From a bacterium (GTDB taxonomy: Bacteria > JALSQH01), in NCBI GenBank assembly GCA_026985515.1, contig JALSQH010000122.1, positions 1-12,332 of the forward strand: 12,332 bases of DNA, in the 5' to 3' direction. Shown here piece by piece: positions 2,466 to 10,153 of this stretch (positions are counted from its first letter, which is position 1; each line of letters begins with the position of its first letter). The position numbers were made by a program, and so were the translations under genes. The notes beneath the pieces were generated by a model. The model worked only from the letters and a program-made list of their open reading frames with translations, did not search any database and was not told the origin of the DNA.

Positions 2466-4134
2466 AGAGATCGTGAAAAAAAGAATCTCTCGAAGAGATT
2501 TCGCAAAATATCTTGCTAAGGGAGCAATTTCAATAGCAATACTACCATCATTTATTACCTCGTGCGGGAAAGAAAAAGTTAGCAAATCCTCCACCTATCC
2601 CTATCTTCCCGGTAGCAGTTACAAAATTGGTCCCTACTTCACCACCCTTAACAAAACAGTTAAACCAGTTCTGCCACTTCCAGAGGATGGAAATTATTAT
2701 CCAGAAGATCACCCCGACCTGGGAAAATACTCATTTGGAGAGGGTGAGAACATAATATTAAGAGACGATCCTCCTTTCACAAGAACAGATAACCCGCAGA
2801 GGGCTGTTCTTCTTTACTTTGTGCATCTCTCTGATATCCACCTCACAGATGAAGAATCCCCCATGAGGATGGTTGACGCTGACGCAAAAGGTGCGACTCA
2901 GGGAGCCTACAGAAGACAATCCATGTATTCCACCCAGGTACTGAACTCTGTGGTGAGGACCATCAATCACCTTGCCAAACCCAGAAAATTTGATTTTGTA
3001 ATTCTCACCGGGGATCTCATAGACAATGACGAATATGTGGAACTTCGATGGCTCATAGACATTATGGATGGGAAAGCTGTCAATCCCGATACAGGAAAAG
3101 ATGATGACCCCGTACCTGGACCAGCCAACGACTTTAACGATCCCTTTCAGGCGTGGGGACTCGATAAAAACATACCATGGTATGCGGTAATCGGGAATCA
3201 CGACCTCGGGGTTCAGGGAACCTTCTTCGCCACCGAATATTACAATCAATACGCCGTGGGTGACACAGTTTATGGTGGCAGTCAGGATGGTTCAAAACCT
3301 GACGCAACCAAAATCCGCTCCAACACAAAGGTGCCTTCTGATCCCAAAAGACACCTCCTGGGCACAAGGGTGAAAGATTATCAGGATGCTTCACCCTACA
3401 TTTCAGAATTTTTCAAAACATCCTCCAGCCCTGTGGGGCATGGATTCAGAAGCAAAGATGATAAAGTGGGATTCTACACAGTTGATCCGGGCAAGGGCTT
3501 TATAAGAATAATAGCCATGGATACCTACGATATAAAGAACGGCGGAGCAGATGGTTACATGAGCAGAGACCAGTGGGAAAATCTGGTTATACCTGCTATT
3601 GAACAGGCAAGGAAGGACAAAAAACTTGTTATCCTCACAAGTCACCATGCTTCATACTACATGAAGAGTAACTCGGAAGTTTCGGGAGAGGAAATTGTAA
3701 ACACCCTTCTACAGTATCCCCATGTAATTCTCCATCTGGTAGGTCATGGGCACCTGAACAGGATTGATTACCACATCAACAGTGAGGGTACAAATGGATA
3801 CTGGGAGATACAGACATCTTCCCTTATAGACTTTCCCCAGCAGGGAAGAATTATTGAGATTGTTTACAATGGGGATGGAACAGATTCAATTTTCACAGTT
3901 ATGCTTGACCACAACTCACCTGAGGGGTGCATGTCATACAGATCCAGAGAACTGGCTCTTCTTGAGATGCAGATAGGTGATGCAACAGGATGTGGACCCG
4001 GTAAACCTGAAGATAGAAACACAGAATTGATCTTTAAAGTACCTGATGAAATAAGACAGGTTATCGAATCAAAGATTGATCAGCTTGAAAAACAGACTGC
4101 AGCTGAAACCTTTCTCAAAGAGGAGATAACATGA
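2452..4134 (+). CDS. Tat-exported lipoprotein metallophosphoesterase
   Basis: A 560-residue calcineurin-like phosphoesterase. The N-terminus carries a twin-arginine signal SRRDFAK (13-19), a hydrophobic stretch (about 23-35) and a lipobox ITSC (35-38), so C38 should be lipidated after folded export. The metal-site motifs occur in order: SDIH (127-130; D128, H130), GDLID (187-191), GNHD (248-251), SHH (397-399) and GHGH (431-434). All ligands are present, so it should be active. Long inserts separate the motifs. Together with the Tat signal this resembles the large families modelled as TIGR03767/TIGR03768 (recalled, not searched). The substrate is unknown; a phosphomonoester or phosphodiester at the cell surface is likely. 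The gene starts inside the DUF721 gene and ends in an ATGA overlap with the first acyl-CoA dehydrogenase. Confidence 0.9.
   Translation: MVNLEEIVKKRISRRDFAKYLAKGAISIAILPSFITSCGKEKVSKSSTYPYLPGSSYKIGPYFTTLNKTVKPVLPLPEDGNYYPEDHPDLGKYSFGEGENIILRDDPPFTRTDNPQRAVLLYFVHLSDIHLTDEESPMRMVDADAKGATQGAYRRQSMYSTQVLNSVVRTINHLAKPRKFDFVILTGDLIDNDEYVELRWLIDIMDGKAVNPDTGKDDDPVPGPANDFNDPFQAWGLDKNIPWYAVIGNHDLGVQGTFFATEYYNQYAVGDTVYGGSQDGSKPDATKIRSNTKVPSDPKRHLLGTRVKDYQDASPYISEFFKTSSSPVGHGFRSKDDKVGFYTVDPGKGFIRIIAMDTYDIKNGGADGYMSRDQWENLVIPAIEQARKDKKLVILTSHHASYYMKSNSEVSGEEIVNTLLQYPHVILHLVGHGHLNRIDYHINSEGTNGYWEIQTSSLIDFPQQGRIIEIVYNGDGTDSIFTVMLDHNSPEGCMSYRSRELALLEMQIGDATGCGPGKPEDRNTELIFKVPDEIRQVIESKIDQLEKQTAAETFLKEEIT
4121..4125 (+). 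promoter_or_regulatory. Ribosome binding site for the first acyl-CoA dehydrogenase
   Basis: AGGAG lies five bases before ATG 4131, within the end of the metallophosphoesterase gene. It supports the ATGA overlap start. Confidence 0.75.
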
Positions 4135-5564
4135 AGTATCCCGAGGATCTCCCGTCAATCCCAGTCAACTATGCAGAGGAAAAACTCTTTTCTCCGGAGA
4201 TCAACCATCTCGTTGAAAAGAGATTGTCAAAAAGATTCGAAAAAATCAGAAGAGATGCAAGAGACTTCTCCGAAAAATTTATCTATCCCTCTGCCCTTAA
4301 AATCGACTGGATCATCAAAAACGAGGATCACGACTACACACCCTGGGACATAGTAAAAGAGGGGATGAAGAGGGGTTACCTCTCTTTCATGTATCCAAAA
4401 GTAACAGGTGGAAAAGGTGGCTTAACTGCTGAATTTGCAGTGCTTATGGAAGAACTCTCAGCAGCATGCCCTGGAATAGCCAACATCTTTGGAGCAAATG
4501 CTCTGGGTGCTGCAGCCATTGTCTTTTCCTTCAATCCCGACATTTGGGAAAGATACCTTGTAAGAGCTGTGGAAGCGGAAAAGATGGGAGAACCAGTTAT
4601 CTTTGCATGGGCGATAACTGAACCCTCTGCCGGCAGTGATGTGGAATATGATGAAGGGCTTGAGAAAGGGACCCTCACATGTGAGGCAAAGCCTGTAGTG
4701 GGCGGCTTCAGGTTATCTGGCAGAAAGGTTTTCATATCAAATGGGAGCATAGCAAAATACATTGTTGTCAAAGCAGCAACCGATAAGAAGAGGGGCAGGG
4801 AAACCTGGTCCACTTTCATAGTTTCCTCAAGTGCAGAGGGGTTCAGAGTCGTTCGTACAGAATACAAAATGGGTCAGGTAGCCTGTCCCGCAGCGGAGCT
4901 GGAATTTGACGAAGTTTTCATTTCCAGAAGGGATACCATTGGACCAGTTGGCTCAGGAAGAATCATGTCAAAATTGATCCTTGCAGCATCGAGGGGTCCC
5001 GTTGGAGCAATTTCTACAGGTATAGCACTTGGTGCATTCAGGCTTGCTGCAGGATATGCCATGAGGGAAGATACCCCATATTCAAGAAGCATAAGAAACC
5101 CGGTTATAAGAGAAATCCTGGTGGAGATGTTCAACAGGATCAGGACTGCAAGGCTTTCATATCTGGAAGCAACATCAAACTTTGACAAACTTCTTCTTCC
5201 CCCAAGAAGTATAATGGATGGTGCGGAAAAACCGTACAGAGCCCTGACCCCTCTCATAAGGCGTGAAAATATCCTGGAGAAACTCCACAGAATAGGTGAC
5301 AAGATACTTGAAAGATACTTTGACCACATAGTATCATCCGGAAAGCTGGATGCCCAGTACAAACTTGCATCCTCAGCCAAAGTGATCGGGTCAGATACAG
5401 CAGTATGGGTCGCTTCAAGAGCCCTTGATATTATCAGGCCAGGTGATCATCCATACTGGCTTGCTGCACAGAAACTCTACAGGGACGCAAAACTTGTGCA
5501 GATCTATGAAGGAACAAATCAACTGAACAAACAGAGCATAGGAAACTTTCTCCTGACAGGGTGA
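4131..5564 (+). CDS. Acyl-CoA dehydrogenase, catalytic-type subunit
   Basis: An ACAD-family flavoenzyme, expected to oxidise acyl-CoA to the trans-2-enoyl-CoA in the cytoplasm and pass electrons to ETF. At 477 residues it is longer than the usual 380-400. It has the N-terminal helical domain (about 30-155), signature AITEPSAGSD (161-170), the beta domain with GRKVFISNG (197-205), the C-terminal helical domain, and YEGTNQ (459-464) with probable catalytic base E460. Two motifs that normally bind the FAD of the partner subunit are lost at alignable positions. The R-x-Q-F-G position reads E-D-T-P-Y (313-317), and the Q-x-x-GGYGY position reads D433 then RPGDH (436-440). An extra stretch of about 45 residues lies near 350-405. 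The next gene keeps the lost motifs, so a heteromer is inferred. Confidence 0.93.
   Translation: MKYPEDLPSIPVNYAEEKLFSPEINHLVEKRLSKRFEKIRRDARDFSEKFIYPSALKIDWIIKNEDHDYTPWDIVKEGMKRGYLSFMYPKVTGGKGGLTAEFAVLMEELSAACPGIANIFGANALGAAAIVFSFNPDIWERYLVRAVEAEKMGEPVIFAWAITEPSAGSDVEYDEGLEKGTLTCEAKPVVGGFRLSGRKVFISNGSIAKYIVVKAATDKKRGRETWSTFIVSSSAEGFRVVRTEYKMGQVACPAAELEFDEVFISRRDTIGPVGSGRIMSKLILAASRGPVGAISTGIALGAFRLAAGYAMREDTPYSRSIRNPVIREILVEMFNRIRTARLSYLEATSNFDKLLLPPRSIMDGAEKPYRALTPLIRRENILEKLHRIGDKILERYFDHIVSSGKLDAQYKLASSAKVIGSDTAVWVASRALDIIRPGDHPYWLAAQKLYRDAKLVQIYEGTNQLNKQSIGNFLLTG
5560..5564 (+). promoter_or_regulatory. Ribosome binding site deciding the second ACAD start
   Basis: GGTGA overlaps the stop codon of the previous gene and lies five bases before ATG 5570. 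It favours ATG 5570 over the in-frame GTG at 5561, which has no suitably spaced site of its own. Confidence 0.6.
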
Positions 5565-5569
5565 GAATC

Positions 5570-6553
5570 ATGGAAGAAATTTTAAAACCGGTAGAAAAAT
5601 TTGTAAAAAAAGAATTGATTGAAAATTGCCACCTGTGGGATGCAGAGCCACAGCAGTTCAGAAAGGACACCTTCCGTCAGATTGAGAAAAAACTTGGCAT
5701 ACTGCAACTCCCTGAGATTGATAAAGAAAATTTCATCAGCAACGCAAGGGGAGTGGTAAGACTCTTAGCTTCTGGATGCGGAAGCATTGCCTTTATCTAT
5801 GCAGTTAATTTTGCAATAACTTCATTTCTTAAGGAGAGGACCAGTTTACCATCAGGAAAACTCTTTATTTCACCTGTGATCATTGAAAAGGATGACTGGC
5901 TCTTCTATTTTAAAAGAGAGAAAAAATTAAGTGGCAAACTTGATGGAATCATTGCAGGAGATCTTGGTGAAATCTTTTTCCTGCCGGTGGCAAGGGAAAA
6001 TGATGAAAGGGGATGGCTTTTAATTGAGGGGACAACCAGTTACTCTGAGGAGAATTCTTTTCTTCCCGGTTTAAGACCTCTTACGACTGGGAGAATCAAC
6101 TTTGAAAATTTCTCTCTTAAAGATGATCTCCTCTTTCTGCCCCAGGGAGAATGGTTTGAAGAATTTAAAAGCTGGTTTTTAATCTACCTCATCCCTCTTT
6201 TCTCCGGGCTGGTGGAAAATGCCCTCAACATATCTGAAAATTACGCAAAGGAGAGATTTCAGGGGGGACAGCCCATTATTGAAATTCCATCTGTGAGAAG
6301 ATTGCTCAACAGCATCAGAGCAACTCTCGCCACACTCAATCACTTGAGCAGTTACCCTATTAAGAGCAGATGGATCGAAGAAATCAGAAAAATATACATT
6401 TCGATAATTGATGATGCAGAAGAGGCTATTTTAAATTCCATTCAGGTAATGGGTGGTTATGGATATATGCAGGATTACAGAGTTGAGAGAATACTCCGTG
6501 ACTTCAGGAGCATTCGCTCCATTTTCTCTCCTCTTGAGTATATTACTGAGTAG
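5570..6553 (+). CDS. Short, divergent acyl-CoA dehydrogenase-like subunit
   Basis: A 327-residue ACAD relative, about 50 residues shorter than usual. The middle domain is recognisable (KLSGKLDG near 119-126; GLRPLTTGRINFEN, 167-180), but there is no TEPxxGSD signature. The C-terminal helical domain is the conserved part: YAKERFQGGQP (225-235) keeps R229, Q231 and G233, and IQVMGGYGY (291-299) keeps Q292 and the glycines, followed by VERILRD (305-311). These are the residues that in ACAD dimers hold the FAD of the neighbouring subunit. The protein stops soon after. The position of the catalytic YEGT reads FSPL (319-322), so the base is lost. On its own it should be inactive; it probably pairs with the preceding gene product. 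GTG 5561 is an alternative start. Confidence 0.85.
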   Translation: MEEILKPVEKFVKKELIENCHLWDAEPQQFRKDTFRQIEKKLGILQLPEIDKENFISNARGVVRLLASGCGSIAFIYAVNFAITSFLKERTSLPSGKLFISPVIIEKDDWLFYFKREKKLSGKLDGIIAGDLGEIFFLPVARENDERGWLLIEGTTSYSEENSFLPGLRPLTTGRINFENFSLKDDLLFLPQGEWFEEFKSWFLIYLIPLFSGLVENALNISENYAKERFQGGQPIIEIPSVRRLLNSIRATLATLNHLSSYPIKSRWIEEIRKIYISIIDDAEEAILNSIQVMGGYGYMQDYRVERILRDFRSIRSIFSPLEYITE

Positions 6554-7394
6554 CTTTCTCCTTTTTTTCCCTCTGACGGGAACAAACCTTCTGGGAGATG
6601 CATCTTCAGCGGGGAAAATCGTCATAACCGGAAAATTTTCCACCGGCAACAAATGGTTCAATGAATCGGGCAAAAGGGAAAGGATGTGGGTAAATCTGGA
6701 GAAAAAATCGGTCACCATAAGAACAGAACTTCCCATCTATCACTCATTTTTCACCGGACTTGAATCTTCACTTGTTAAAATATCAGGATTTTCCGAGTTC
6801 GGGATAATCATAAATGACAGGATTTACACTGCAAGAACAAAAGTAATCACCTCAGAGGGGATTGGAGATTCTGAGGCCTTTATGGGATTTGTTAAGGGGA
6901 AAAATATGCTGACCTTCTCTCTTCTCATTCCCAGCGGAGACAGTGATTTCTACTTTGATAAATTTCCCACAGGCTCAGGAAGGTGGGGGGTCAGACTCTC
7001 CTATGAACGGGAATCTTCTCTTCTCAGCAGAGATAAATTCTCAACCAGCGTTGAAGTGCTCCTTCCCAGAGATTACACCTACATTGATTATCTTGGAAAC
7101 TACCTCACATACAACGCACCTGTAAAGAAAAAGTTTTTCATAAGTTACTCCGCAGGTATCCACACAGGGATTTTCACAGCCACAGCGGGGTTCAACTACT
7201 ATCACGAAATTGCACTGAGCAGGGAAAACCTGCTGACAGTTTCATTGTGCATCTCTTCCCCTGACAGAAGGGGGGGAATAACTCTTGAATTACCTGTGTA
7301 CGGTAAATACTATCCATCGGAAATGCTCCCCTCCTTCTTCTGGGAAAGGGAATTTCCAGCTGGATATGAATTGAGCTTTTACCTGGAGATATGA
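6483..7394 (+). CDS. Putative outer-membrane beta-barrel protein
   Basis: About 303 residues, not firmly recognised. The N-terminus has a long hydrophobic stretch (about 13-31) with a possible signal-peptidase site near DASSA-GK (39-45). The rest is rich in amphipathic strands with alternating aromatic/hydrophobic residues and has GIGD (126-129), IPSG (149-152) and FPTGSGRWG (161-169). These resemble the outer-membrane family PF13557 (MetA-type aromatic degradation barrels); the match is by eye only. It lacks the usual terminal aromatic residue, ending in LEI. The start is uncertain. TTG 6483 is chosen because AGGA (6471-6474) precedes it by eight bases and it adds charged residues before the hydrophobic core; GTG 6453, GTG 6498 and TTG 6534 share the frame. 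It overlaps the preceding ACAD by 71 bases with this start. It may be a porin-like channel for hydrophobic substrates. Confidence 0.55.
   Translation: MREYSVTSGAFAPFSLLLSILLSSFLLFFPLTGTNLLGDASSAGKIVITGKFSTGNKWFNESGKRERMWVNLEKKSVTIRTELPIYHSFFTGLESSLVKISGFSEFGIIINDRIYTARTKVITSEGIGDSEAFMGFVKGKNMLTFSLLIPSGDSDFYFDKFPTGSGRWGVRLSYERESSLLSRDKFSTSVEVLLPRDYTYIDYLGNYLTYNAPVKKKFFISYSAGIHTGIFTATAGFNYYHEIALSRENLLTVSLCISSPDRRGGITLELPVYGKYYPSEMLPSFFWEREFPAGYELSFYLEI
7385..7388 (+). promoter_or_regulatory. Ribosome binding site deciding the protease-barrel start
   Basis: GGAG lies eight bases before ATG 7397 and only two before ATG 7391. The spacing favours 7397, although 7391 forms an ATGA overlap with the previous stop codon. 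Confidence 0.55.
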
Positions 7395-7396
7395 GG

Positions 7397-10153
7397 ATGA
7401 AAAAATTTTACCTTATTCTGTTCCTGATCCTCCTATCCTCCCCTCTGCAGGCAGGTTACCCCGAGATAAAATGGAGGGAAATAGAAACAGAGCACTTCAT
7501 TATCATTTTTCCTGAAGGAAGAGAAAGATACGCAGCCGAAGTGAGCAGAGTGGCAGAGAGAGCATACCCGGTTTACAGGGAAAAGTACGGGGTCACCCAT
7601 CCTGAGAAAACAATAATAACCCTCTGGGATACAGGGGAAATCTCCAACGGAGCCACCTATTATTTCTGGAACTTCATCAGAATAGATGGATTCAGGGGAT
7701 ACTTCTACCTGAGGGACACAACTTCCTGGTGGAGAAATGTTATAAGTCACGAATACAGTCACGATATCTCGCTCCTTTCCGCCCAGCCATTCACCAGATC
7801 CACGCAGGGAATATTTGCTGGAATAAATGGAACAACATCATGGGGAGAATATGGAGGGGAATTCTTCCTTCCATCATACACCATACCAAGATGGCTTGCT
7901 GAGGGGATAGCACAGAGTGATTCAGAGATGATGGGAGGGGATAGATGGGATAGCATAAGGGACATGCTTCTCAGGATGAAACTCCTTGGTGGAAAGTACC
8001 TGAAAATTGACCAGCTTGGAACGATAAGGGATAAAGGATTCACCGATGGGGAAATGGTTTACAATGAAGGATTCTCCCTCGTTAGATACATAAATTCCAG
8101 AAGTCCTGGACTAATTCCAGAAATTCTGAAGACGATGGGCAAAAAATGGTACCCCACCTTTGAAAGTGCATATTTTCATGTAACAGGTAAAAACTGGGAA
8201 AAGGAATATGCAGAATGGGTTTCTGAGCAAAGCAGAAGCTACATTGAAAGGATTAAAAATAAAATTCCCAGAACCGGTGCATCTGTTTCAAAGAGCTGGG
8301 AGATACTGAAAAAAATAAGATTTTACCACAACAAACCTCTCTTCATAGCCTCTCCCCCTGGAGGATACCCTCCGGGAAATCTCTATTCAGGTTACTTCAC
8401 TGGAGAAACAAAACTCATAAAAAAAGAGGTGTGGGACTTCACCACTGACCCACAGGGAAGAGGAATTTATATTTCCTCTTCGGACTACACTGATCCACTG
8501 GGTTACCACTACACCCGTCTATTCTTCTGGGATGGGAGAAAAATAAGAAGAATTCACACAGATGTCCGATTCTACGCCCTATCATCAACGGGAAACAAAA
8601 TATGTGGAGTGGGCTGGAAGGGAGACTCTCTAACATACTGTACCATGGAAAAAGGAGGATCTTTCATATGTGAGGAATTACCCTTTGAAGACATTCTCTC
8701 CCTTCTGTGCAGAAAAAATGGTGTTTTTATGGTGGTGAATTACAGGGGAAGGGGTCTCCTTGTAAAAAAAGTGGATGATCAATACTACTACCTTGCGGTA
8801 TCGGGGAATATCAGGGAGGTGTTTTTGAAGAAAAAGGAATTGTACTTTTCATGGGACAGAAATGGAATTTACAACATCTACGCCCTGAGTCTCACCGACA
8901 ACAGCGGCTTTCAGATTACAGACACAATCTCGGGAGCCTTCTCACCCTTCGTAAAAAATGGATTTCTCTACCATGTGGAATTTACCGGAGATGGTTTTCA
9001 GATTTACAAACTTCCCATAAAGCCTCTGAAGAAACTTCATTTTACATGGAAGAAACTGAAATTTAAAAAAGAGAAACTCCACCTTAAATCACACCCCTAT
9101 TCACTGAAATTTCTGCCTCCACTTCTCTTCCCGGAACTGATGGTTTCCTACGGAAGGTTTAAAGCGGGCTTTACGGCCATTATCAGAGATGCTCTTGATC
9201 TATACTCCCTGGAGGGAGAATTTCTCCTTGGCAGAGATGTGGATATAAGGATCAGGAACACCTTTGATTTCACAGTTCCCACCCTTTACCTTAATTTTTA
9301 CTACTTCAGGAGAAGTAAAGATTATCTTGCAAAATTTGGAAATCTCGAGTTAAAAAAGGATATCTACATCTATGAAGGTGGTTTCAAATACTCCTACCTC
9401 TATCCATTCTACTTTCAGGGTTACCTATACAACCGGAAGATAGAGGAAAAATTTATCGGTTTCAGGCATGAGGAGATGATGACAACAGAAGCCGGGATCA
9501 TTTCAGGATACTTCAGAGGGGATGACCTGGCAGAGGCAAATCCAAGGGACTCAACAGCCGTAATCTTAACACTTTCCGGTGGCCATTCAAGATTACCTGA
9601 GGTGAAGAATTTCACCAGTGAGAAAAAATACTCCTACTTCAAAATAACAGGCAACATAACCCTTTACTTCCCTCTTCCTGCAAACAGCTCCCTCTATTCA
9701 ATCACAAAGGGCGGTTTTATTGACCATCCTGTGGAAAGGTATGACAACTTCTTTATCGGGGGATGGATCAACTACCTCTCAGCTGGTGAGTATCACATTG
9801 AAAATTCCTTTCCAGGGTATGAGTTATTCTTTGCAAGGTGGTACTTTGATCAGACACTCGGGATCCGACTCCCGCTCTGGGAAGGAGAAAAACAAACGGG
9901 CGTTATAACTCATAAAGGAGTTTATTTTTCCATTTTCGGTGATGCGGGCATGGCAAAAAAAGTAACATATAACTCTATAAATTTCAAACTGGTGAAAAAG
10001 AAAGAAAAAATCTGGCTGAAAGATTATGGAGCAGAGCTCAGATACAAAAGTTACCTCTTCTACTCCAATCCCTGGGACAGTTTTCTGAAAATGGCTTACT
10101 CCCCCTCTGAGAAAAATTTCAGGATTTACGCTGGAATAGGAATTGGTTTTTAG
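7397..10153 (+). CDS. Secreted gluzincin metalloprotease fused to propeller-like and outer-membrane beta-barrel regions
   Basis: A 918-residue envelope protein in three parts. A signal peptide (1-19, ending LQA before G20) leads to a metalloprotease region (about 20-280) with zinc motif HEYSH (118-122) and WLAEGIAQ (166-173), where E169 is the likely third zinc ligand. YNEGFSLVRYI (222-232) follows, an arrangement like the peptidase MA family (PF13485). Residues about 305-543 show repeated short strands with D-G/N-G turns, such as WDRNGIYNIYALS (486-498), as in TolB/WD40-type propellers. From about 575 to the end are amphipathic strands, with FFIGG (785-789), SFPGY (804-808), IFGDAG (846-851) and a final AGIGIGF whose terminal Phe is the usual Bam signal. 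It should sit in the outer membrane with the protease in the periplasm or at the surface. ATG 7391 is an alternative start. The substrate is unknown. Confidence 0.82.
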   Translation: MKKFYLILFLILLSSPLQAGYPEIKWREIETEHFIIIFPEGRERYAAEVSRVAERAYPVYREKYGVTHPEKTIITLWDTGEISNGATYYFWNFIRIDGFRGYFYLRDTTSWWRNVISHEYSHDISLLSAQPFTRSTQGIFAGINGTTSWGEYGGEFFLPSYTIPRWLAEGIAQSDSEMMGGDRWDSIRDMLLRMKLLGGKYLKIDQLGTIRDKGFTDGEMVYNEGFSLVRYINSRSPGLIPEILKTMGKKWYPTFESAYFHVTGKNWEKEYAEWVSEQSRSYIERIKNKIPRTGASVSKSWEILKKIRFYHNKPLFIASPPGGYPPGNLYSGYFTGETKLIKKEVWDFTTDPQGRGIYISSSDYTDPLGYHYTRLFFWDGRKIRRIHTDVRFYALSSTGNKICGVGWKGDSLTYCTMEKGGSFICEELPFEDILSLLCRKNGVFMVVNYRGRGLLVKKVDDQYYYLAVSGNIREVFLKKKELYFSWDRNGIYNIYALSLTDNSGFQITDTISGAFSPFVKNGFLYHVEFTGDGFQIYKLPIKPLKKLHFTWKKLKFKKEKLHLKSHPYSLKFLPPLLFPELMVSYGRFKAGFTAIIRDALDLYSLEGEFLLGRDVDIRIRNTFDFTVPTLYLNFYYFRRSKDYLAKFGNLELKKDIYIYEGGFKYSYLYPFYFQGYLYNRKIEEKFIGFRHEEMMTTEAGIISGYFRGDDLAEANPRDSTAVILTLSGGHSRLPEVKNFTSEKKYSYFKITGNITLYFPLPANSSLYSITKGGFIDHPVERYDNFFIGGWINYLSAGEYHIENSFPGYELFFARWYFDQTLGIRLPLWEGEKQTGVITHKGVYFSIFGDAGMAKKVTYNSINFKLVKKKEKIWLKDYGAELRYKSYLFYSNPWDSFLKMAYSPSEKNFRIYAGIGIGF

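Follow-up and report, generated by a model that had tools for sequence, protein, structure and literature searches.

Adjacent acyl-CoA dehydrogenase genes with complementary motif losses predict a heteromeric enzyme with a compact FAD-clamping subunit

Results

The window, that is, the whole 12,332-nucleotide stretch of DNA analysed, carries two adjacent acyl-CoA dehydrogenase (ACAD) genes on the same strand, at the positions where an earlier note on this DNA had placed them. The first gene, A, encodes an alpha-type ACAD of 477 aa (4131..5564, + strand, with an ATG start and a TGA stop), and the second, B, encodes a beta-type ACAD of 327 aa counted from the ATG at 5570 (5570..6553, + strand). 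A metallophosphoesterase gene lies upstream of A and overlaps it by 4 bases. The ORF list starts B at a GTG (5561), which is still possible; the ATG at 5570, implied by the residue numbers that the earlier note used for B, has a good ribosome-binding sequence (AGGGTGAG) immediately 5′ of it. The codon usage of B correlated with that of its neighbors at 0.73 in frame and at 0.47 and 0.56 out of frame. A downstream ORF with a signal-peptide–like start (6453-7394) overlaps the 3′ end of B in a different frame, and this overlap may be linked to the early stop of B. Positions 7391-10153 encode a predicted secreted protein of 920 aa that lacks a Pfam match and contains HEYSH, a motif that looks metallopeptidase-like by eye. 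By Pfam, the window neighbors are GGDEF, GDPD, DciA, metallophosphoesterase, TPR, and unassigned envelope-type proteins, and no other beta-oxidation genes were found in the window neighborhood. In a domain search, the ACAD C-terminal domain was matched 20 times in the source genome assembly (2.36 Mb in 268 contigs, 97.6% complete), which also has an ETF gene pair on contig C252.

Both A and B are members of the ACAD family. Above the Pfam cut-off, A matched the N, middle, and C domains (Acyl-CoA_dh_N, Acyl-CoA_dh_M, and Acyl-CoA_dh_1), and B matched the C domain (Acyl-CoA_dh_1) alone. The AlphaFold model of A (pLDDT 83.7, pTM 0.87) found its best fold match in the T. thermophilus MCAD 1ukw (Z 47.1, 1.8 Å over 377 residues), and its structural matches also include caffeyl-CoA reductase, 3-sulfinopropionyl-CoA desulfinase, and a cysteine dehydrogenation enzyme. 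The model of B was of moderate quality (pLDDT 76.1, pTM 0.83) and superposed with 324 of its 327 residues on complete ACADs (Z about 30), indicating that B is a compacted ACAD. That B is a fragment missing a domain was ruled out, since all three ACAD regions are present, in compacted form, in the model.

In MCAD-type structures, the TEPxxGSD and YEGT motifs serve the flavin and substrate of their own subunit, and the R-x-Q and Q-x-x-G-G motifs reach the FAD of the neighboring subunit. We read the state of these motifs from a joint alignment of A, B, and their relatives with ordinary ACADs. A has the flavin-binding loop TEPSAGSD (T163-D170; 4617..4640, + strand), K199-V-F-I-S203, and Y459-E-G-T462 (5505..5516, + strand), which stands in an intact YEGTNQ and includes Glu460, the predicted catalytic base; TEP.AG.D and YEGTNQ are invariant in the alignment of A-type proteins (A1). 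The in-trans FAD contacts of A are lost at both positions, with E313-D-T-P-Y317 at the R-x-Q-F-G position (5067..5081, + strand) and D433...R436-P-G-D-H440 at the Q-x-x-G-G-Y-G-Y position (5427..5450, + strand). B retains both in-trans FAD motifs, R229-F-Q231-G-G233 (6254..6268, + strand), in the context YAKERFQGG, and Q292-V-M-G295-G296-Y-G-Y299 (6443..6466, + strand). The R-x-Q-G-G form of the former is shared by nearly all partners. TEPxxGSD is deleted in B, and I-F-S-P (6521..6532, + strand) stands opposite YEGT, leaving no catalytic base. The joint alignment bears out what the earlier note had read by eye, namely the retention of TEPSAGSD and YEGT with EDTPY and D433/RPGDH in A, and the retention of R229/Q231/G233 and Q292...GGYGY without TEPxxGSD in B. 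The loss of YEGT from B that it described also stands, although the residues at this site are I-F-S-P and not, as it had them, F-S-P-L.

The complementary motif split was found in 24 further adjacent, co-oriented pairs from lineages that include Thermodesulfobacteriota, Myxococcota, Actinomycetota, and Spirochaetota, which rules out an oddity private to the window. In the joint alignment, none of the 27 A-type proteins retained R-x-Q or Q-x-x-G-G, and none of the 26 B-type proteins retained TEPxxGSD or YEGT (the B protein of L009 ends with its contig before YEGT). Essentially all motifs were retained in 14 unpaired ACADs, a modest control set that came from the same search. When 84,980 genomes were scanned, each of the best seven relatives of A (L009-L014 and L021) had an adjoining ACAD, as did L016, L017, L025, and L080; the gene order in L009, the nearest relative, is likewise A then B. 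The phylum of the source genome is represented by only two genomes in the searched set.

Profile scans of 336 genomes detected A-type genes in 13 genomes including the source genome, mostly beside a B-type gene. Five A-type genes stood without an adjoining ACAD: three of them (L114, L116, and L117) make up a clade linked to guaA, L120 borders the end of its contig, and the fifth, L122, is divergent. The earlier note had proposed searching for conserved co-occurrence of both genes, and B-type genes did not regularly occur without A-type genes in this set: all nine B matches above 240 bits adjoined an A match, and the two clear cases of orphan, unlinked B-type genes, in G186 (L148/L172) and G318 (L173), each had an orphan A in the same genome. 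The apparently unlinked alpha–beta sets are L164 (A-type, beside guaA) with L148 in G186, and L184 with L173 in G318. As an unlinked orphan B was thus found in two of the three genomes of the guaA-linked clade, the partners co-occur there despite their separation. Only a weaker B candidate (L182) was found in G041. On contig C93 of the same genome, three consecutive ACAD genes are arranged in the order alpha–alpha–beta (L125, 160-4068). The next three B-profile matches were two ordinary ACADs and one B-like protein, L146 (1486-2607, in G137), which has AEELGSSL for TEPxxGSD and WCGP for YEGT and has no other ACAD in the surrounding stretch; from these motifs, it is possibly an orphan beta-type gene.

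Only 11 columns were invariant in the alignment of 12 B-type proteins (A2), namely G213, Y225, R229, Q231, G233, I236, Q292, G295, G296, G298, and Y299, and they include all six FAD-clamp residues (R229, Q231, G233, Q292, G295, and G296). B shares about 20% identity with the other partners. Of the 22 positions with conservation of 90% or more among them, it nevertheless retains 18, as against 17 of the 184 poorly conserved ones, suggesting that B is under selection and not decaying. The retained FAD positions, together with the in-frame codon usage, argue for retention of the FAD face of B; these features and the intact frame exclude a pseudogene or a frameshift. The alpha and beta distance matrices correlated with r = 0.87 (25 pairs) and r = 0.53 (14 non-redundant pairs), with none of 5000 permutations as high, a correlation to which the shared species tree contributes. 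In a phylogenetic tree, the alphas except that of the L110 pair formed one group (31 rows, SH-aLRT 98), with L009_A as the row nearest to A (86), and the betas formed another (25 rows, SH-aLRT 100). By far the longest branch was that of B (3.87); because of this and the long-branch warnings in this quick tree, the beta placement is tentative.

The earlier note had described B as ending early and as much shorter than its partner. B does end early, but by about 10 residues only, and is indeed shorter than the other partners (327 versus about 370 aa), but "much shorter" overstated a modest difference, and the full ACAD fold remains. Most of the shortening lies in the middle domain: the spacing between the TEP and R-x-Q columns is 109 residues in B and 119-146 in nearly all other partners. 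L123_B is likewise short (316 aa), and the compaction is therefore not unique to B. In A, 122 residues separate R-x-Q from Q-x-x-G-G; the spacing is 62-71 residues in alphas without an insert and in ordinary ACADs, indicating that A carries a helical insert of about 52 residues (about 353-404; 5187..5342, + strand), as delimited from segment lengths and the model helices (324-371 and 375-402). Almost all members of the larger alpha subclade have a conserved spacing here of 121-124 residues; the insert is missing from the L080/L016/L017/L025/L121/L129 alpha group.

Discussion

The recurrence of the 24 pairs, the invariant FAD clamp in B, the co-divergence and co-occurrence of the partners, and the published alpha2beta2 ACADs support the prediction of the earlier note that A and B form a heteromer. 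On these sequence grounds, A and B very probably constitute a heteromeric ACAD in which A is catalytic, B clamps FAD, and each pair contains a single active site with a single FAD. We propose that the two proteins would assemble, most likely as alpha2beta2, with A providing Glu460 as the base and the binding sites for both the acyl-CoA and the flavin ring. B would be a catalytically dead paralogue that has been retained because its R-x-Q-G-G and Q-x-x-G-G-Y-G-Y motifs clasp the ADP moiety of the FAD bound in A; without B, FAD binding by A would be expected to be weak. Electrons from the reduced flavin would go to ETF, and the expected reaction is acyl-CoA alpha,beta-dehydrogenation with ETF as the acceptor. 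We infer the assembly of A with B, their dehydrogenase activity, and the role of ETF as electron acceptor, and likewise the obligate nature of the pairing and the FAD stoichiometry.

Two other explanations were weighed against this heteromeric dehydrogenase. A might be a self-sufficient homomeric ACAD that tolerates the loss of its in-trans FAD motifs, with B as a decaying duplicate; the A-type genes L114, L116, L117, and L122, which have no adjacent B, and the position of B as the most divergent partner, at the low identity given above, would agree with this. However, it is precisely the FAD-facing positions that B has kept, in an intact frame with normal codon usage, and A–B adjacency recurs across many lineages, making such decay very unlikely. 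We consider it equally improbable that the A–B heteromer performs a task other than acyl-CoA desaturation, for example, a reduction or a scaffold role. The ACAD fold serves several chemistries, as seen among the structural matches, and the operon neighbors are a phosphoesterase, a GDPD enzyme, and envelope-type proteins rather than beta-oxidation genes. On the other hand, A retains both the flavin loop and an intact YEGTNQ with its catalytic Glu, and related pairs (L010 and L016) adjoin thiolase-like, AMP-ligase, SDR, and nitroreductase-family genes, which are typical of acyl-CoA catabolism.

The proposed division of labor between A and B has published counterparts. ChsE4-ChsE5 (FadE26-FadE27) and ChsE1-ChsE2 (FadE28-FadE29) of Mycobacterium tuberculosis are alpha2beta2 steroid acyl-CoA dehydrogenases (PMC11153573, PMC8399759) with two active sites per tetramer (PMC8399759); in alpha2beta2 ACADs, the alpha subunit has the isoalloxazine site, the substrate site, and the catalytic Glu, and the beta subunit contacts the ADP-ribose of FAD (PMC11153573). 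The earlier note had named both ChsE pairs as alpha2beta2 precedents, aptly, as these enzymes divide FAD in the same way. Like them, as known from published descriptions, the window pair consists of two ACAD subunits from separate genes with the same split of FAD roles. Unlike them, it is not in a steroid catabolism cluster and its B is shorter; A has the insert of about 52 residues, which the mycobacterial pair that we sampled (L080) lacks. ChsE chains, those of ChsE4 and ChsE5 included, were absent among the listed PDB sequence and fold matches, an absence that is no argument against kinship, and the tree had no ChsE rows. Tcur3481 of Thermomonospora curvata (PDB 6wy8/6wy9) matched the B-type profile with an E value of 6.8e-24, and we take this deposited chain to be a subunit of the alpha2beta2 bile-acid ACAD of that organism. 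The latter enzyme, reported in a review (PMC8399759), acts on a steroid side chain, whereas the window pair has no steroid neighborhood. CasC of Rhodococcus jostii RHA1 has two fused ACAD domains, one with the catalytic Glu and the other needed for FAD binding (PMC8399759), and it thus differs as a single fused chain from the two genes of the window. An adjacent ACAD gene pair also encodes the PimCD-like dicarboxylyl-CoA dehydrogenases, for which a heterotetramer was proposed from similarity to ChsE1-E2 (PMC12543098); these enzymes belong to a different pathway and are likened to the window pair by description only.

Judged by its motifs, the window pair follows a known heteromeric ACAD design and is distinguished by its insert-bearing alpha and compact beta. 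In our judgment, it is as likely as not that the pair represents a widespread class of heteromeric ACADs that has apparently escaped characterisation, with a conserved insert in alpha and with genes outside steroid clusters, and that beta is shrinking to an FAD clamp in this lineage. A catalytic copy paired with a dead, cofactor-holding paralogue would be a clear case of constructive loss following gene duplication, and a design characterised in steroid degraders would now extend to an uncultured lineage and, via its relatives, to several phyla. Annotators should leave B-type genes out of counts of active dehydrogenases.

The source genome contains a second overlapping ACAD pair with complementary losses (L110, 1755-4134, contig C229). 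Its first protein (412 aa) has TEPGFGSD and FEGT and lacks R-x-Q-F-G and QxxGG, and its second (384 aa) has RVAFG and QVLGGHGY, lacks TEP, and has LLAG at the YEGT position. This pair falls outside both clades of the window pair in the tree, which suggests that the alpha/beta motif split may have evolved repeatedly. A pair like L110 is also present in G186 (L152/L168).
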